In this document: positions 7,443 through 16,082 of the stretch, piece by piece
How positions within the stretch are numbered: position 1 is the first letter of the stretch
Layout: every line of letters begins with the position of its first letter
Assembly: GCA_963204815.1 (NCBI GenBank)
Contig: CAUJHQ010000115.1
Coordinates: 62,001 to 126,000 of the forward strand
Direction of reading: 5' to 3'
DNA: 64,000 bases
Origin: Pseudomonadota bacterium
GTDB taxonomy: Bacteria; Pseudomonadota; Gammaproteobacteria; Burkholderiales; Burkholderiaceae_C
The notes under the pieces: generated by a model
Told to the model about the DNA's origin: nothing
Database searches by the model: none
The model's input: the letters and a program-made list of their open reading frames with translations, nothing else
Position numbers and translations under genes: made by a program

Positions 7443-7518
7443 GCCGATGACGTGCCAAATCGGACCTCATTTCCGTGCTGCCGGCTCACCCCTGGCCGCT
7501 CGGGCGATACTTCGGCCG

Positions 7519-8655
7519 ATGAGCGGACCCCCGCGGGCGATACGCCTGCTGCACCTCGAGGATTCCGAACCCGACCACGCGCTGGCGATGGCGCAGCTGC
7601 AGCGCGCCGGCCTGCGCGTGCAGGCGCTGCGCATCGAGACGCGCGAGCAGTTCGCGCTCGCGCTGTCGCAGCCCTGGGACCTGATCCTGTCGGACTACAA
7701 CCTGCCCGGCTTCTCCGGCCTGCAGGCGCTGAAGATGCTGCGCGAGAGCGGGCGCCCGCTGCCCTTCATCCTGGTCTCCGGCGAGATCGGCGAGGAGACG
7801 GCGGTGGCGGCCATGCGCGGCGGCGCTTCCGACTACCTGCTGAAGAACAACCTGGCGCGGCTGGCGCCGGCGGTCGAGCACGCCATCTCGGCAGCCGAAA
7901 CGCTACGTGCGAAAGTTCACGCCGACCGCGAGCTGCAGGCCTCGCAGCAGCGCCTGTCCGAACTGGCGCAGCACCTGCAGACCAGCGTCGAGGCCGAGCG
8001 CCACGCGATCGCACGCGAGATCCACGATGACGTCGGCGGTTCGCTGACGGCGCTCAAGTTCGACCTCGACTGGATCGGCCGCCGCGTCACGCAGCCCGAG
8101 GTGCGCCAGCGCGTGATCACCGCGCTGGACACGGTGACGCACGCGATCGAGGCCAGCCAGCGCATCATGCACAACCTGCGCCCGGCGATCCTCGAGCAGG
8201 GCCTGGTGGCCGCGCTGCAGTGGATGGCCAGCCGCTTCGAGCGCCGCAGCGGCGTCGTCTGCGTCTTCCGCACCAGCCACGACCGGCCGGTGCTGCCGGT
8301 CGGCGTGCCGCTGGTGGCCTACCGCACGGCGCAGGAGGCGCTGACCAACATCAGCAAGCACGCGAACGCCTCGCGCGTGAGCATCGACCTGTCGATCGCG
8401 CGCGGCGTGCTGTCGCTGGAGATCAGCGACAACGGCCAGGGCCTGTCGAGCGCCGACCTCGCGAAGGCGCAGAGCTTCGGCATCCGCGGCCTGCGCGAGC
8501 GTGCGCTCACCGTCGGTGGCTGGATCGACCTGTCCAGCAGCAGCCGCGGCACGACGGTGATCCTGTCGGTGCCGCTGGAACGCGCGCCGCGCGACGCCGG
8601 CCCGTCCACGCGCGACAACCTCGAGCACGACCCCTCGGCCTGGGGCCAGCTCTGA
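7519..8655 (+). CDS. Soluble receiver-histidine kinase, DesK/NarX type (378 aa)
   Basis: Residues 8-125 form a receiver domain (D15, phospho-acceptor D59 in LSDYNLPG, K109). A coiled segment (128-160) leads to a HisKA_3 dimerisation domain with H169 in REIHDDVGGSL, then an ATPase domain with EALTN, DNGQGL and GIRGLRERA boxes. There is no membrane segment, so input probably comes through the receiver. I chose the ATG at 7519 because the receiver starts there; an in-frame ATG at 7447 adds 24 residues unlike the family. It is followed after 25 bases by a NarL-type regulator, its likely partner, and is divergent from the che operon. Confidence 0.9.
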   Translation: MSGPPRAIRLLHLEDSEPDHALAMAQLQRAGLRVQALRIETREQFALALSQPWDLILSDYNLPGFSGLQALKMLRESGRPLPFILVSGEIGEETAVAAMRGGASDYLLKNNLARLAPAVEHAISAAETLRAKVHADRELQASQQRLSELAQHLQTSVEAERHAIAREIHDDVGGSLTALKFDLDWIGRRVTQPEVRQRVITALDTVTHAIEASQRIMHNLRPAILEQGLVAALQWMASRFERRSGVVCVFRTSHDRPVLPVGVPLVAYRTAQEALTNISKHANASRVSIDLSIARGVLSLEISDNGQGLSSADLAKAQSFGIRGLRERALTVGGWIDLSSSSRGTTVILSVPLERAPRDAGPSTRDNLEHDPSAWGQL

Positions 8656-8680
8656 CCCACCCTCCAACACGGCAACGGCG

Positions 8681-9316
8681 ATGATCCAGGTGATCCTGTG
8701 CGACGACCATGCGCTGATCCGGCGCGGCATCCGCGACACGCTGGCCGACGCGCCCGACATCCAGGTCGTCGGCGAGGCGGGCGACTACGCCGAGCTGCGC
8801 GGCCTGATGCGAACGACCGCGTGCGACGTGCTCGTGCTCGACATCAACCTGCCCGGCCGCAGCGGCCTGGACGCACTGCATGCACTGAAGGACGAGGGCT
8901 CGCCGGTTAAGGTGCTGGTCGTCAGCATGTACCCGGAGGACCAGTACGCGATCCGCGCGCTGCGCGCCGGCGCCTTCGGCTACGTCAACAAGGGCGGCGA
9001 CCCGCAGATCCTGGTGCAGGCGGTGCGCACGGTGGCGCAGGGCCGCAAGTACGTGACGCCGGAGATCGCGCAGATGCTCGTCGAGAGCCTGACGACGCCG
9101 GCGGTCGAGAACCCGCACCAGAAGCTGTCCGACCGCGAGCTGCAGACGCTGGTGATGATCGCCAGCGGCAAGCGCCTGTCGGACATTGCCGAGGCGCTGA
9201 TGCTGAGCCCGAAGACGGTGTCGGTCTACCGCGCCCGCGTGCTGGAGAAGCTGCAGCTCGCGAACAACTCGGAGCTCACGGTCTACGCCATCCGCAACGG
9301 CCTGGTCGGCGAGTGA
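8681..9316 (+). CDS. NarL/LuxR-family response regulator (211 aa)
   Basis: Receiver domain (D8, D9, phospho-acceptor D54 in LVLDINLPG, K104) followed by a LuxR-type DNA-binding domain at about 145-205 (LSDRELQTLVMIASG and the recognition helix region SPKTVSVYRARVLEKL). The length is standard. It is probably phosphorylated by the HisKA_3 kinase just upstream. Targets are not evident; the adjacent EgtB/SenA-like gene 31 bases downstream may be cotranscribed. Confidence 0.93.
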   Translation: MIQVILCDDHALIRRGIRDTLADAPDIQVVGEAGDYAELRGLMRTTACDVLVLDINLPGRSGLDALHALKDEGSPVKVLVVSMYPEDQYAIRALRAGAFGYVNKGGDPQILVQAVRTVAQGRKYVTPEIAQMLVESLTTPAVENPHQKLSDRELQTLVMIASGKRLSDIAEALMLSPKTVSVYRARVLEKLQLANNSELTVYAIRNGLVGE

Positions 9317-9347
9317 ACCGGCAGACGAAGGGGCAGGTGAGGCGGCC

Positions 9348-10526
9348 GTGAGCAGCAGCGCCGACGACCCCTACGCGATCCGCGCCGCGAATGCCGAGCT
9401 GCTGTCGCTGGCGCTGATCGACGCGCGCAACCACACGCTGCGCTGGTTCGCGGCGTTTGCCGACCGCGACGCCGTCGACTACACGGTCGTCGACATCGTC
9501 GAGCGCGCCGGGCAGTACCAGGACGACTGGATCGCGCGCAATCTGCAGCGCAGCCGCGGCGAGTCCTGCGCCGCCGACGCGCCGCGCCTGCCACCGGTCA
9601 ACGACCGCCTGATGGTGGACGGCGGCCGCCAGCACCACATGCCGCTGTTCGACGACCTTCAGGCCTGGCTGGTGCAGACGCTGGAGACCACGCTCGACCT
9701 GCTGCACACCGCCACGCCGGACGACGCCGGCCTGCACTTCTTCCGCCTCGCGCTTCGTCACGAGGACCGCCTGGGCGAGGCGCTGGCCGAACTCGCGGCC
9801 GAGCGCCAGCTGCCCGACGCCGCGCCGGCCGGCGTGCCGCCGCCGCCCTGGCGCACGCTGGCCGCGCGGCCGCCGCGCGAGCCGCTGTGGCTGCCGTCTC
9901 AGCGCCACTGGCTGGGTTCGCGCATGGGCGGCACGGTGCCCGAAGGTGAGCGCTGGGCACACGAGGTGCTGCTGCCCGAGTTCGAGATCGACGCCCAGCC
10001 GGTGAGCTGGGCGCGCTACGTCGAGTTCGCCGAGGACGCCGGCTACGACCGCCGCGAGCTCTGGTCCGACGCCGGCTGGGCCTGGGTCCAGAACACGTCG
10101 CGGCGCGCGCCGCGGCACATCGAGCAACTGCGCGGCGCCGTGCTGGTGCAGCGGCGCGGCCAGATGCAGCGCGTGGCCGCCAACCAGCCGGTGCTGCACG
10201 TGAGCCGCCACGAGGCCGAGGCCTGGTGCCGCTGGGCCGGCCGCCGCCTGCCCACCGAGCCCGAATGGGAGCTCGCCGCCATGGTGGGTGCCTCGCGCGG
10301 CTTCGTCTGGGGCGACGTGTTCGAGTGGGTCGCCGGCAGCGCGCGCGCCTGGCCGGGCCACGAGGCGGGCCCCGGCGCGCTCGACCGCGTGCCGCGCGGC
10401 GCGGCCGGCGTGCTGCGCGGCGCTTCGTGGATGACCCGCGCGCGCGAGCGCCATCCGAAGGCGCGCCGCTTCGCCCTCCCGGACCAAGATACGATGTTCA
10501 GCGGCTTCCGAAGCTGCGCCCTCTAG
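9348..10526 (+). CDS. EgtB/SenA-like protein of the SUMF1 family (392 aa)
   Basis: The layout is that of ergothioneine or selenoneine synthases: an N-terminal DinB-like helical domain (to about 160) and a C-terminal SUMF1-type domain (about 195-392), with the family ending VLRGASW ... FSGFRSC. The NHTLRW box (H29) and LALRHED (H138) look most like SenA of Burkholderiales. These enzymes use an iron triad, with the last two His in the pattern HX3HXE; here the motif reads H138-E-D-R-L142-G-E144, so the third ligand seems to be Leu. No senB glycosyltransferase or senC (selD-like) gene is adjacent. The GTG start at 9348 is the first of the frame. It may be an inactive or altered paralogue. Confidence 0.65.
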
Positions 10527-10550
10527 AAGAACCGTCCCGCAGGAGACCCC

Positions 10551-11024
10551 GTGACCCGTCTATCCCTCACCGTGAACGGCCGCGCGACCGACGTCGACGT
10601 CGAGCCGCAGACCCTGCTCGTCGAACTGCTGCGCGACCGCCTGCAGCTCACCGGCACGCATGTCGGCTGCGACACCAGCCAGTGCGGTGCCTGCACGGTG
10701 CAGGTCGATGGCCGCGCGGTGAAGAGCTGCACGATGCTCGCGGTGCAGGCCGCCGGCCGCAGCGTGACCACGATCGAAGGGCTCGCGCAGGGCGAGCGGC
10801 TGCACCCGCTGCAGGACGCCTTCGTCGCCTGCCACGGCCTGCAGTGCGGCTTCTGCACGCCGGGCATGATCATGGCGGCGAACTGCCTGCTGTCGCAGAA
10901 CAAGGCGCCGAGCGACGACGAGGTCGCGCACGCGCTCGAAGGCAACCTGTGCCGCTGCACCGGCTACGTCAACATCGTCGCCGCCGTGCAGACGGCCGCC
11001 AAGACGCTGCGGGGAGAAGGCTGA
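10551..11024 (+). CDS. coxS: [2Fe-2S] subunit of a CO-dehydrogenase/xanthine-oxidase family enzyme (157 aa)
   Basis: The small iron-sulfur subunit of a three-subunit molybdenum hydroxylase, carrying electrons from the Mo site to FAD. The plant-type cluster ligands are C40, C45, C48 and C60; the second cluster has C99, C102, C134 and C136 (QCGFC and CRCTGY). GTG start with an AGGAG ribosome site 6 bases before it. Its stop overlaps the start of the large subunit gene (TGATG). The FAD subunit is encoded at 22663-23448 on the other strand. Confidence 0.92.
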
Positions 11025-13354
11025 TGGACACGCTTCGATTCGGCAGCGGCCTCGCGGTACGCCGCGTGGAAGACCCGGCGCTCGTGCGCGGCCAGGGCCA
11101 GTTCACGGACGACGTGCAGCCCGCCGGCCAGCTCTTCCTGCGCTTCGTGCGCAGCACGGTGGCGCATGCGCGCATCACCGGCCTGGACGTCGACGCCGCG
11201 CGTGCGCTGCCCGGCGTCGTCGCCGTCTACACCGGCGCCGACCTCGAGGCCGCCGGCGTCAAGCCCTTCGTGTTCCCGCCCGCGTTCCCGCGGCCGGACG
11301 GCAAGCCGATGGCGTCGCCCACCAAGCGCGTGCTCGCGGTCGGCCACGTGCACTACGTGGGCGACCCGGTGGCGATGGTCGTCGCGCAGAGCCGCGACGC
11401 CGCGCGCGCCGCCGCCGACGCGGTGATGGTCGAGTACGACGAACTGCCGGCGGTGGTCGACGCCGTCGCCGCCGCCCAGCCGGGCGCGCCGGCGGTCTAC
11501 GCCGGCGCGGCCGACAACATCTGCGCCGAGATGCGCCACGGCGACCGCGCCGCCACCGACGCCGCCTTCGCGCAGGCGGCGCACACGGTGTCGCTGGAGA
11601 TCGTCAACCAGCGCCTGGCGCCGAGCCCGATGGAGCCGCGCAGCGTGCTCGCCTGGGTGGCCGACGACGGCCGCCTCACGCTGCGCGCGTCGAGCCAGAT
11701 GCCGACCGCGGTGCGTGACGGCGTGGCCGGCGTCATCCCCGGCCTGTCGGCCGCGAACGTGCGCGTGCTGGTGGGCGACGTCGGCGGCGGCTTCGGCATG
11801 AAGACCGGCTGCTACCCGGAAGACGTGGCCGTGGCGTTCGCCGCCTGGACGCTGAAGCGGCCCGTGAAGTGGCAGGCCGAGCGCCTGGACGACTTCCTCG
11901 GCGCCGTGCACGGCCGCGACCTGACGAGCAAGGCCGAGATGGCGCTCGACGCGAACGGCAAGGTGCTGGCGCTGCGCGTGCGCTCGTGGGCCAACGTGGG
12001 CGCCTACCCGGGCGTGGCCGGCGTCGCCATCCAGGTGCTGATCGGCCCCTGGGTCACGACCAGCATCTACGACATCCGCACGATCGACCTGCAGATCACG
12101 GCGATGCTCACCAACACCACGCCCACCGGCCCGTACCGCGGCGCCGGCCGGCCGGAGGCGATCTACACCACCGAGCGCCTGTTCGACGCCGCCGCGCGCA
12201 AGATGGGGCTCGACCCCGCCGAGCTGCGCCGCCGCAACATGATCCGCCCCGAGCAGTTCCCGTACACGAACGCGATGGGCCAGGTCTACGACGTCGGCGC
12301 GTTCGAGAAGGTGCTCGACCAGGGCCTGGCGCTCGCCGACTGGCAGGGTTTCGACGCGCGGCGCGCGGCATCGAAGGCCAGAGGCAAGCTGCGCGGCCGC
12401 GGCATCGCCACCTTCCTGGAATGGACCGGCGGCAACGCGCTCGAAGAGAACGTCACCGTCGACGTCACCGCCGACGGCTTCATCGAGCTCACGTCGGCGA
12501 CGCAGGCGATGGGCCAGGGCATCGCCACAAGCTACGTGCAGCTGGCGCACGACGTCTTCGGCGTGCCGCCGGAGAAGATCCGCGTGCTGCAGGGCGACAC
12601 CGACCGCGCCAACGGCTTCGGCAGCGCCGGCAGCCGGTCGCTCTTCACCGGCGGCGCGGCGGTGCGCGTGGCCGCCGAGCGCACGGTCGACGAAGGCCGG
12701 CAGCTCGCTGCCACCGCGCTGGAGGCACCGGCCGCCGACATCGAATACAAGGCCGGCCGCTTCACGGTGGCGGGCACCGACCTCGGCATCGGCCTCTTCG
12801 ACCTGGCGGCCAAGCAGCCGGCCACGCGCATCACCGTCAGCGGCAAGGCGGCGGCGAGCGCGCCCAGCTGGCCCAACGGCTGCCACATCTGCGAAGTCGA
12901 GGTCGACCCGGCCACCGGCGAGACCACGCTGGTCGCCTACGCGTCGGTCAACGACATCGGCCGCATCGTCAGCCCCGACATCGTCAAAGGCCAGGTCGAG
13001 GGCGGCGCGGTGCAGGGCATCGGCCAGGCGCTGTGCGAGCGCATCGCCTACGACCGCGAGAGCGGCCAGCTGCTGAGCGCCAGCTACATGGACTACGCGA
13101 TGCCGCACGCCGACGGTTTCCGCGCCTTCAAGACCGCGTTCGACCAGAGCGTGCCTTGCAAGACCAACGGGCTGGGCGCCAAGGGCGTGGGCGAGCTCGG
13201 CACCATCGGCGCCACGCCGGCGGTGGTGAACGCGGTGATCGACGCGCTCGCCTCGGCCGGCCTCGGCCGCGACGCCGAACGCGTGCAGATGCCGCTCACC
13301 GGCGAGCAGGTCTGGCGCGCGCTGCGGCGCGAGTTCGACGCGCCGTTCGCCTGA
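11024..13354 (+). CDS. coxL: Molybdopterin-binding large subunit, form II CoxL-like (776 aa)
   Basis: Catalytic subunit of a xanthine-oxidase family molybdenum enzyme. Cofactor-binding segments are visible (VGGGFGMK, AYPGVAG-type, QAMGQGI, GSAGSR), as is the catalytic Glu in GVGELG near the C-terminus. True (form I) CO dehydrogenase has an AYXCSFR loop; the matching loop here is PYRGAGR, the form II type, whose substrate is generally not established to be CO. It overlaps coxS by one base and is followed by a strong hairpin shared with the convergent TIR-globin gene. Confidence 0.92.
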   Translation: MDTLRFGSGLAVRRVEDPALVRGQGQFTDDVQPAGQLFLRFVRSTVAHARITGLDVDAARALPGVVAVYTGADLEAAGVKPFVFPPAFPRPDGKPMASPTKRVLAVGHVHYVGDPVAMVVAQSRDAARAAADAVMVEYDELPAVVDAVAAAQPGAPAVYAGAADNICAEMRHGDRAATDAAFAQAAHTVSLEIVNQRLAPSPMEPRSVLAWVADDGRLTLRASSQMPTAVRDGVAGVIPGLSAANVRVLVGDVGGGFGMKTGCYPEDVAVAFAAWTLKRPVKWQAERLDDFLGAVHGRDLTSKAEMALDANGKVLALRVRSWANVGAYPGVAGVAIQVLIGPWVTTSIYDIRTIDLQITAMLTNTTPTGPYRGAGRPEAIYTTERLFDAAARKMGLDPAELRRRNMIRPEQFPYTNAMGQVYDVGAFEKVLDQGLALADWQGFDARRAASKARGKLRGRGIATFLEWTGGNALEENVTVDVTADGFIELTSATQAMGQGIATSYVQLAHDVFGVPPEKIRVLQGDTDRANGFGSAGSRSLFTGGAAVRVAAERTVDEGRQLAATALEAPAADIEYKAGRFTVAGTDLGIGLFDLAAKQPATRITVSGKAAASAPSWPNGCHICEVEVDPATGETTLVAYASVNDIGRIVSPDIVKGQVEGGAVQGIGQALCERIAYDRESGQLLSASYMDYAMPHADGFRAFKTAFDQSVPCKTNGLGAKGVGELGTIGATPAVVNAVIDALASAGLGRDAERVQMPLTGEQVWRALRREFDAPFA

Positions 13355-13364
13355 TCGCGGCGGC

Positions 13365-13395
13365 GGCGCACGCGCGCGTCAGCCGCGCGTGCGCC
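13365..13395. terminator. Perfect 12-bp hairpin between convergent genes
   Basis: GGCGCACGCGCG (13365-13376) and CGCGCGTGCGCC (13384-13395) are perfect inverted arms around a 7-base loop. It starts 10 bases past the coxL stop and covers the last codons and stop of the convergent gene. No T-run follows on either side, so it may be a pausing or RNA-stability structure rather than a classical intrinsic terminator. Confidence 0.45.
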
Positions 13396-15271
13396 GCGCC
13401 GCGGTGGCCAGCATCTCGGCGCGCACCGGCGCGAACAGCGCGCGCCACGCCGCCGCGATCTCGGCGCGCTCGCTTTCGCTGTCGCCAGCGGCGACGAGCG
13501 CCTGGTCCAGCGTCGTCAGGAACGCGGCCTCGAAGTCGGCGAAGTGCGTCGCGTCGAGGCCGAAGCCGGCGTGCGACGCGGCCAGCGAGTCGATCGCCGA
13601 CGGCTCGGCGCCGGGGGCGAAGTTCAGCACCGCCTTCAGGCCGTCGAGCAGCTTGCGGTGGTGCGTCTCGTCGGGCACCGGACCGTGGCTGCCGCCGCGT
13701 GCGCGGCGCGCCCGCTCGAAGATTTCGCGCGACGCCGGCGAGCGCGTGAAGAAGGCGTCGTAGAAGGCGTGCGAGAACGCCAGGCTCGCCGCCACGCCTT
13801 CCCACGCCGGCGTGACGACGCGGCGGTAGGCGTACTTCGCGAGCGCGCGGTCGGCGCTTTCCAGCGTGCGCAGGTGCGCCAGCACCTCGCGCATCGGCGC
13901 CCGCGCGCGTTGCGCGGCGTCGGCCGACGCGAGCTCGGCGGGGTCGCCCTGGAAGCGGTCTTCCGGCTTCGGCGCCAGCAGCCGGCGCACCAGCCGCGCC
14001 AGCTGCACGTGGCGCGGCGCCCAGGCAGCCTGCGCCAGCACCGCGAGCGGGTCGACCGGCTGTTCCTTCTCGCCGACGATGAACAGCGTGCGCCCCTCCA
14101 AAAGCTCCAGCGCCAGCAGGCCCAGGAAGTACTGGTCGCCGCGCACATCGGCCTCGCCGCCGGCCAGCTTCTCCGGCAGCAGGTAGGTGCCGTTCTTCGG
14201 GCCGACGATGTGGCGGAAGGTCTGCGGCTCGAAGAAGTGCCAGAGGAAGTTGGTGACGCCCACCAGCGACACCTGCGGCCGCATCGTCGCCGCGTCGTAG
14301 TAGATGTTGCCCGGCACCAGCGGGCCCATCAGGTGCTGGTAGGGCCGGTCGGCGCCGCCGTCCCACGGCACCGGCGGCAGGCCGTGCAGCAGCGCCAGCG
14401 CCTCGGCGACGCGCCGCAGCACGATGCGCACGGTGTCGGCCGTGAAGTGGCGCTCGGCCGGCGCGCGCGTGGCGTCGGCGCGCAGTTCGTCGGCCAGCGG
14501 CGTGCCACGCGCCAGCTCGCTGAGGATGACGATGCGCGCCTCGTAGCTCTCGCCGTCGATGAAGACGTCGGTGGTGCGGATGATGGACGGCGAGTTCAGC
14601 TCGCGGCAGGCCCGGCTGACGTCGAAGAACAGCTGCCGCATGCGGTGCAGCGGCGTGTTCGTCAGCACCTTGATGACGACGTCGTCGCCGTTCGGGTAGA
14701 GGCCGCGGCAGACGATGGAGAAGTCGCCGGCGTCGAGCGCCTGGATCGGCGTGATCAGCGCGCCCGAGCTCGAGCGCGCCAGGATCGGCCGCACCGCGGC
14801 GACCACCGGGTCCTCGGTCTTCAGGCGCGGCAGCAGGTCGCCGGCGACGACCTCGCAGCAGCGCAGCAGGTGGGCGTCGCGCGCCGGGCCCTCGGGCAGG
14901 TCGGAGATGGCGCGTGTCACCGGTTCCTGCACGGCCTGCAGGTCGGCGAGTTCGGACCACTGCCAGCCGCAGGGTTCGACGAGGATCCAGTGCACCGCCA
15001 CCAGCTCGTTCAGGTGGCGTGCCTTCGCCAGCGCGGCCAGCTCGCGCCGGCACCAGGCCGACACCAGGTAGTCGGGGCTCACCAGCACCACCGCCGCGGC
15101 GGCCTGGCGCAGCTGGCCGCGCAGCGTGTCCTGCCAGTTGCTGCCAGCGGCGATGTCCTCGTCGGTCCAGACCTCGCAGCGGTCCAGCAGCATGCCTTCG
15201 AGGTGCTTCTTCACACGCCGCATCACGGGCTGGTCGAGGTGCGAGTAGCTGATGAACAACGAACCCTTCAT
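13379..15271 (-). CDS. TIR - pseudokinase - globin fusion protein (630 aa)
   Basis: Three domains are visible. Residues 1-150 are a TIR domain (FISYSHLD, WTDEDI) with a candidate catalytic Glu at E77 in SAWCRREL. Residues 180-445 follow a Ser/Thr kinase plan: VVIK lysine K201 is kept, but the HRD motif reads MGP before LVPGN (D replaced by P317) and DFG reads GVT, so it is probably a pseudokinase. Residues 473-622 are globin-like: B-helix FYDAFF with Y504, H538 in the distal position exactly 29 residues before the proximal H567 in LAASHAGFGLDATHF, and an H-helix AWRALFAPVRAEM, close to Vitreoscilla haemoglobin in pattern. No membrane segment. The start at 15271 begins right at the TIR fold. 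Function unknown; a haem-gated TIR protein is an inference. Confidence 0.85.
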   Translation of the reverse strand: MKGSLFISYSHLDQPVMRRVKKHLEGMLLDRCEVWTDEDIAAGSNWQDTLRGQLRQAAAAVVLVSPDYLVSAWCRRELAALAKARHLNELVAVHWILVEPCGWQWSELADLQAVQEPVTRAISDLPEGPARDAHLLRCCEVVAGDLLPRLKTEDPVVAAVRPILARSSSGALITPIQALDAGDFSIVCRGLYPNGDDVVIKVLTNTPLHRMRQLFFDVSRACRELNSPSIIRTTDVFIDGESYEARIVILSELARGTPLADELRADATRAPAERHFTADTVRIVLRRVAEALALLHGLPPVPWDGGADRPYQHLMGPLVPGNIYYDAATMRPQVSLVGVTNFLWHFFEPQTFRHIVGPKNGTYLLPEKLAGGEADVRGDQYFLGLLALELLEGRTLFIVGEKEQPVDPLAVLAQAAWAPRHVQLARLVRRLLAPKPEDRFQGDPAELASADAAQRARAPMREVLAHLRTLESADRALAKYAYRRVVTPAWEGVAASLAFSHAFYDAFFTRSPASREIFERARRARGGSHGPVPDETHHRKLLDGLKAVLNFAPGAEPSAIDSLAASHAGFGLDATHFADFEAAFLTTLDQALVAAGDSESERAEIAAAWRALFAPVRAEMLATAARRTRG

Positions 15272-15338
15272 CGCGGTTCCCTTCGCGCGGCGCGTCGCCG
15301 CAGAATCGCCGGACGCCGCACCCTACGCCGCCCGCACC

Positions 15339-16082
15339 ATGCCGTCAGCCCCTAGCACCCCCCCGCGCGCCGTGCTCGTCGTCGGCGCCGGCGACGCCAC
15401 CGGCGGCGCCATCGCGCGCCGCTTCGCCCGCGAGGGCTACATCGCCTGCGTCACGCGGCGCACGGCCGACAAGCTGCAGCCGCTGGTCGAGCGCATCCGC
15501 GCCGACGGCGGCCAGGCGCACGGCTTCGCGTCGGACGCGCGCGACGAGGCCGCGGTGGCGGCGCTGTTCGCGCAGATCGAGCGCGACATCGCGCCGCTCG
15601 ACGTGGTCGTGTTCAACATCGGCGCCAACGTGCGCTTCGCCGTCACCGAGACGACCGAGCGCGTCTACCGCAAGGTCTGGGAGATGGGCGCGCTCGCCGG
15701 CTTCCTGGTCGGCCGCGAGGCGGCGCGCCCGATGGCGCCGCGCGGCCGCGGCACCATCCTCTTCACCGGCGCCACCGCCAGCCTGCGCGGCGGCAAGGGC
15801 TTCGCCGCCTTCGCCGGCGCCAAGCACGCGCTGCGCGCGCTGGCGCAGAGCATGGCGCGCGAACTCGGGCCGCAGGGGCTGCACGTGGCGCACGTGGTGA
15901 TCGACGGCGCGATCGACACCGAGTTCATCGCGACGAACTTCCCCGAGCGCTATGCGCTGAAGGCCGAAGGCGGCATCCTCGATCCCGAGGCCATCGCCGA
16001 GGCCTACTGGCAGCTGCACCGCCAGCCGAAGAACGCGTGGACGCACGAGATAGACCTGCGACCCTGGATGGAGACCTTCTGA
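15339..16082 (+). CDS. Short-chain dehydrogenase/reductase-like protein with Phe in place of the catalytic Tyr (247 aa)
   Basis: Rossmann-fold SDR protein with the nucleotide loop VGAGDATG (residues 15-22) and NIG (93-95). The catalytic serine S148 is present, but the YxxxK motif reads F158-A-G-A-K162, so the proton-donating tyrosine is missing. Similar proteins with this change are known in proteobacteria, so it may be a stable subfamily. I chose the ATG at 15339; an earlier in-frame ATG (15252) would overlap the divergent TIR gene and add 29 non-family residues. The stop overlaps the next start (TGATG). Confidence 0.85.
   Translation: MPSAPSTPPRAVLVVGAGDATGGAIARRFAREGYIACVTRRTADKLQPLVERIRADGGQAHGFASDARDEAAVAALFAQIERDIAPLDVVVFNIGANVRFAVTETTERVYRKVWEMGALAGFLVGREAARPMAPRGRGTILFTGATASLRGGKGFAAFAGAKHALRALAQSMARELGPQGLHVAHVVIDGAIDTEFIATNFPERYALKAEGGILDPEAIAEAYWQLHRQPKNAWTHEIDLRPWMETF

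Follow-up and report, generated by a model that had tools for sequence, protein, structure and literature searches.

Among known bacterial TIR effectors the switch is a cyclic nucleotide, a phage protein or oligomerisation. Some carry their sensor on the same chain, as in Cat1 and TIR-STING (PMC12162218), and a further sensor-fused TIR effector is represented by the PADLOC model SAVED_TIR. The account of Cat1 describes a CRISPR-linked protein whose CARF sensor reads cyclic oligo-adenylate, and in its available text no pseudokinase or globin is named (PMC12162218). Globins joined to a signalling output are familiar from the globin-coupled sensors, such as HemAT and the globin-diguanylate cyclases, and chimeric globins generally carry the globin at the N terminus according to the available text of a 2006 census (PMC1457004). 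Here we analysed a 64,000-nucleotide stretch of a draft genome assigned to Burkholderiales (contig CAUJHQ010000115.1, positions 62,001 to 126,000; hereafter the window, to which all positions refer unless a locus is named), and describe a gene that encodes a TIR domain, a pseudokinase and a globin in one protein, P0002. This combination points to an enzyme for defence or stress, controlled by a haem-bound gas or redox signal. Sensor-fused TIR domains and output-fused globins were already known; what is new here is the kind of putative sensor that a TIR effector carries.

The gene lies at 13379..15271 (minus strand), and its product runs to 630 amino acids from an ATG. The first-pass annotation of this DNA, made from the sequence alone, had proposed this single reading frame without naming a strand and had divided it into a TIR domain, a kinase fold lacking its catalytic acids and a globin. 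The frame was confirmed, and the division is supported by profile matches, by conservation and by a model of the globin; the Pfam models TIR_2, Pkinase and Globin each exceed their curated cut-offs. The GC content of the gene (0.727) is close to that of the window (0.728). Whole-genome searches, from which loci L069-L071 were left out, recovered the same three-part protein in three other genomes, G253 (L043:172-1983, 48% identity to P0002), G1218 (L129:8062-9921, 52%) and G1239 (L130:5474-7339, 56%), with the same domain order, similar spacing and no internal stops, and with TIR_2 and Globin above cut-off in all four. These four proteins are referred to as clade A. More distant TIR-pseudokinase proteins form clade B, from another genus (G011, G1165 and G1159; 27% identity to P0002), in which the G1159 copy is split over two contigs, and clade C, from the same genus as P0002 (G1214; 23% identity). 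The family of clades A to C is unrooted, and statements on conservation refer to an alignment of its eight sequences (four from clade A, three from clade B and one from clade C). The claim that no protein with this domain order had been described is consistent with full-text searches of open-licence papers, which showed no TIR-globin protein. In a survey of kinase architectures in prokaryotes from 2005, a term search of the main text found neither TIR nor globin (PMC1262709).

The TIR domain covers residues 6-114 (14930..15256, minus strand), with a TIR_2 score of 63.7 bits against a cut-off of 28 (E 2.9e-17); the other seven proteins tested scored between 34.4 and 64.6 bits, also above cut-off. 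Glu77 (codon 15041-15043), earlier put forward as a candidate catalytic residue, is present in all eight sequences, and W73-E77 forms a WxxxE motif. When a profile built from all four TIR domains of clade A was compared with the PDB, the best match was Cat1, a CARF-TIR NADase (E 1.7e-5), followed by plant and animal TIR domains. The site for nicotinamide adenine dinucleotide (NAD+) in Cat1 is lined by S7, H8, N9, N10, D33, S68 and E74, as given in the available text of its description (PMC12162218), and these seven residues correspond to S8, Y9, S10, H11, D37, S71 and E77 of P0002 (HMMER alignment, positions counted by hand). Four of them, S8, D37, S71 and E77, match Cat1 S7, D33, S68 and E74 residue for residue and are kept in 8/8 members. 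P0002 further resembles Cat1 in having its TIR domain at the N terminus and a sensor and TIR in one chain. The Cat1-like residues at the NAD site fit a TIR domain that would act as an enzyme.

The kinase-like domain spans residues 176-456 (13904..14746, minus strand). Its Pkinase score of 34.0 bits exceeds the cut-off of 31.7 (E 2.6e-8, best stretch 179-296); PK_Tyr_Ser-Thr also matched, and the C-lobe (~362-456) was matched separately by PADLOC models and PDB kinases. Within clade A, Pkinase is above cut-off in P0002 and the G1218 protein and below it in those of G253 and G1239, as expected of a decayed kinase. The prediction that the VAIK lysine had been kept and the HRD and DFG acids lost was borne out by the alignment: K201, the APE glutamate E367 and D379 are conserved in all eight sequences, whereas the HRD aspartate is replaced in every one, by Pro in the four clade-A members and by Asn in the four members of clades B and C. 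DFG reads LVG throughout clade A, so that P0002 lacks both aspartates of an active Ser/Thr kinase. Where the activation segment would start, clade A carries an invariant block, SLVGVT-FLWHFF, and this part of the pseudokinase therefore looks repurposed rather than randomly decaying. Thoeris ThsB, SAVED-TIR and the PD-T4-6 and MADS6 kinases of PADLOC are kin of the single domains of P0002 and among its best matches. They differ in that the matches are partial, including those of PD-T4-6 and mad6 to the kinase part, that the NCBIfam models of Thoeris ThcB4 (22.0 bits against a cut-off of 220) and of MAD6 (18.5 bits against 460) lie far out of reach, and that no partner genes were found among the neighbours checked.

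The globin covers residues 502-619 (13415..13768, minus strand). Pfam Globin (PF00042) scored 35.9 bits against a cut-off of 22 (E 1.2e-8), with 35.2, 30.7 and 33.4 bits for the orthologues in G253, G1218 and G1239, and an hhalign comparison of the fused globin with a single-domain globin gave a probability of 96.9. The fold itself is supported by a single-sequence structure model of moderate quality together with a fold search. All four clade-A members carry a full haem-pocket set, Y504 (B10), F518 (CD1), H537 (E7) and H567 (F8). The first-pass annotation had identified Tyr504 as the B10 residue and His567 as the proximal ligand, and both assignments stand. It had placed the distal histidine at His538, 29 residues from the proximal one; by helix register E7 is instead His537, and therefore the E7-F8 distance is 30, with His538 at E8, a position taken by Leu in G1218. 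The fused globin was compared with 26 rows of single-domain globins, representing 25 distinct globins (L032 and L050 being one globin). Tyr-B10 is common to P0002 and all 26 rows, whereas E7 is Gln in 26/26 of the rows and His in the clade-A globins.

Both the fold and the Globin score support assigning the C-terminal domain to the single-domain/flavohaemoglobin lineage, with which it shares Tyr-B10, Phe-CD1 and His-F8. It differs from these proteins in lacking a flavin adenine dinucleotide (FAD)/NAD reductase, in having His rather than Gln at E7, and in an insertion before the E helix. The likeness to globin-coupled sensors lies in a globin joined to a signalling output; here, unlike the N-terminal globins of that group, the globin is C-terminal, it matches Pfam Globin and not Protoglobin (for which no model was listed for P0002 up to E 5 in the Pfam scan), and the output is a TIR domain. 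Two further bacterial globins fused to another domain, the globin-Roadblock/LC7 protein (PDB 3wfw) and the globin-NO synthase (PMC6104048), have different partners, and neither is described, in the available text for the latter, with a TIR or kinase domain.

Outside clade A the C-terminal domain becomes hard to recognise. The B10, CD1 and E7 positions are occupied by Tyr, Leu and Gln in all three clade-B proteins, and F8 is His in both of those that reach this position in the alignment, as well as on the second of the two G1159 contig pieces. In clade C the residues at B10, CD1, E7 and F8 are Phe, Met, Gln and Asp. A comparison of clade B with a single-domain globin by hhalign gave a probability of 1.1, and that of the clade-A globin with clade C a probability of 10.0 over 22 columns. 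Custom globin hidden Markov models (HMMs) were also applied, with 500 shuffles of each target as control (in the order G011, G1165, G1159 fragment, G1214; L009 and L030 yielded no globin for this comparison). The number of shuffles reaching the real score was 0, 0, 120 and 0 with an HMM of fused and single-domain globins, 1, 28, 271 and 7 with single-domain globins only, and 0, 32, 300 and 0 with fused globins only. The C-terminal domains of clades B and C are accordingly doubtful globins. In both clades a CDPxC stretch precedes the last helix (L036, L131, L134, L133), the first Cys being Arg in L134. The clade-B genes are divergent from a gene for a CorA-type transporter in 3/3 genomes (L036:9082-11315, L131:9738-10805, L132:4914-5882), which in L036 is followed by a gene for an extracellular solute-binding protein. 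Two phage-integrase-family genes adjoin the clade-C gene (L133:4070-6092), suggesting a mobile element.

We hypothesize that P0002 is a single-chain effector in which a haem ligand or the redox state of the haem gates an NAD+-consuming TIR domain through the pseudokinase, a reading that falls only a little short of an even chance. Via His567 the globin would bind haem b, whose distal side would face Tyr504 and His537, and it would read O2, NO, CO or the haem redox state. The pseudokinase, with its nucleotide-contacting lysine kept, would relay the state of the globin, and the TIR domain, once relieved or oligomerised, would use Glu77 to cleave NAD+ or to make an NAD-derived signal. Loss of NAD+ would then arrest the cell under gas, redox or phage-linked stress. 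On this basis an NADase gated by haem is plausible, and we infer haem binding, NAD+ cleavage, the gating and its direction, the trigger, its transduction, the identity of the ligand and the benefit to the cell. Somewhat more tentatively, one of O2, NO, CO or a redox signal, sensed at the C-terminal globin, may switch NAD+ destruction or NAD-derived signalling via the pseudokinase. If so, P0002 would stand as the first of the immune TIR effectors to sense a gas or a redox state. A globin acting as sensor would tie NAD+-based growth arrest to the gas or redox state and haem sensing to immune-type signalling. As a single-gene system it would allow ligand, haem and enzyme activity to be measured in one purified protein, and the way in which the haem residues differ from clade A to clades B and C provides a ready-made series for asking what the globin adds.

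Several observations weigh against a haem-gated NADase. The residues corresponding to three further NAD-site positions of Cat1 do not follow it: Y9 and H11 are invariant in the eight members yet unlike Cat1, and S10 is variable. Many TIR domains are adaptors only. Cat1 additionally requires K121 and Y122 from a partner TIR, as stated in the available text of PMC12162218. The clade-A globin aligned with the C-terminal domain of clade B with an hhalign probability of only 0.4, and because the globin is barely recognisable in clades B and C, with the proximal His missing from clade C, the wider family may be able to do without haem. The full-length structure model of P0002 (predicted local distance difference test, pLDDT, 41.2; predicted template modelling score, pTM, 0.27) is of too low confidence to place the domains against one another. 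An earlier suggestion that the protein serves in the response to NO, stress or phage was not borne out by the surroundings of the gene: within 300 bases upstream the best FNR-like box has at least three mismatches in 8/8 members, and PADLOC at a threshold of 1e-3 matched none of the six neighbours of P0002 and one of seven orthologue neighbours, weakly and partially (mad8, matching the T2SSE ATPase of G1239).

Other explanations share parts of this evidence. The TIR domain might be a protein-protein assembly module, making P0002 a scaffold, regulated by gas or redox state, for a partner encoded elsewhere, which we regard as rather unlikely. Pseudokinases and many TIR domains do scaffold, and no neighbour is common to all clade-A members; this reading has to contend with S8, D37, S71 and E77 being invariant in 8/8 sequences although identity drops to 23%. 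The globin could instead have chemistry of its own, dioxygenating NO, storing oxygen or serving as a haem sink, and be fused for stability and not as a switch of the TIR domain. Its kinship to ordinary single-domain bacterial globins and the Tyr-B10 held in common with all 26 rows speak for such a function, whereas the Pfam scan found no reductase domain in P0002, E7 differs from every one of those rows, and the fusion has been retained in four diverged genomes; we consider this reading unlikely.

It is also improbable, to a slightly greater degree, that the C-terminal domain adopts a globin fold without haem and senses protein or small-molecule partners, in the manner of the non-haem sensor globin RsbR. 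The substitutions at all four pocket positions of clade C and the Leu at CD1 in clade B point in this direction, and the full pocket kept in 4/4 members of clade A, the clade that holds P0002, points away from it. An origin of the fusion in a frameshift or misassembly of separate genes had been named as a possible refutation, and the host assembly is a draft of 82.8% completeness in 192 contigs. The chance of this is negligible and the artefact is refuted, because genes of the same architecture, with similar spacing and no internal stops, occur in three other genomes.

The TIR-globin gene is rare. In genome samples that overlap and each include the genome of P0002, searched by scoring only a handful of top candidates in each genome, with misses therefore possible, full-length matches were found in 3/80 genomes of its own genus (its own, G1218 and G1239), in 1/6 of the G253 genus and in 3/399 of the family (its own, G253 and the clade-B genome G011). 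The G011 genus gave full-length matches in 2/21 genomes plus one split gene, all of clade B. Beyond the family, where a clade-A profile was run on samples of the order (399 genomes), the class (369) and the phylum (90), the own genome alone gave a full-length match; the kinase part alone was matched in five further genomes of the order sample and two of the class sample. No match to P0002 was seen in phages and viral contigs, and the plasmid matches were partial: 19 records aligned with the TIR end of the query over 16-22% of its length, and none reached 80% coverage. Three loci from a scan of genome contigs, all of them kinases with HRD and DFG motifs, were rejected. A second TIR protein of 321 amino acids is encoded in the same genome (L041:6146-7111, G000:C110), with a TIR_2 score of 99.6 bits, stronger than that of P0002.

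The genes flanking P0002 are not regarded as part of the system. Downstream lies the large subunit of a molybdenum hydroxylase (11024..13354, plus strand), and the convergent arrangement noted in the first-pass annotation was confirmed, the hydroxylase stop ending at 13354 and that of the TIR-globin gene beginning at 13379. Divergent from it on the other side is an SDR oxidoreductase gene (15336..16082, plus strand; Pfam adh_short), for which the start at 15336 was chosen within an open frame beginning at 15252. The annotation had also seen no typical defence partner beside the gene, and this held among the neighbours checked with PADLOC. In the own genome the TIR-globin, SDR and DsbA-like genes lie between the molybdenum hydroxylase and a VWA/CoxE gene, whereas in G1218 the match ends of these two lie no more than 70 bases apart (L168), the TIR-globin gene being on a different contig (L129). 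In G1239 it lies between FGE and T2SSE-type ATPase genes, and G1201 has the same neighbours without it (L172). The FGE-type gene three genes from the TIR-globin gene, by comparison, is found in 75/80 genomes of the genus. Being rare and absent from the corresponding sites in relatives, the TIR-globin gene is therefore an accessory gene found at differing places. A DMFA2_C-type gene follows the TIR-globin gene ~100 bases downstream on the same strand in G1218, and the T2SSE gene precedes the TIR-globin gene by ~90 bases on the same strand in G1239; co-transcription is thus possible in both, with different genes. Further from the gene, the window holds genes for a histidine kinase with receiver, a LuxR-type regulator, an FGE-like protein, a 2Fe-2S protein and the molybdenum hydroxylase (7447-13354), an arrangement that recurs in many of the loci examined (the hydroxylase query being an out-of-frame translation).
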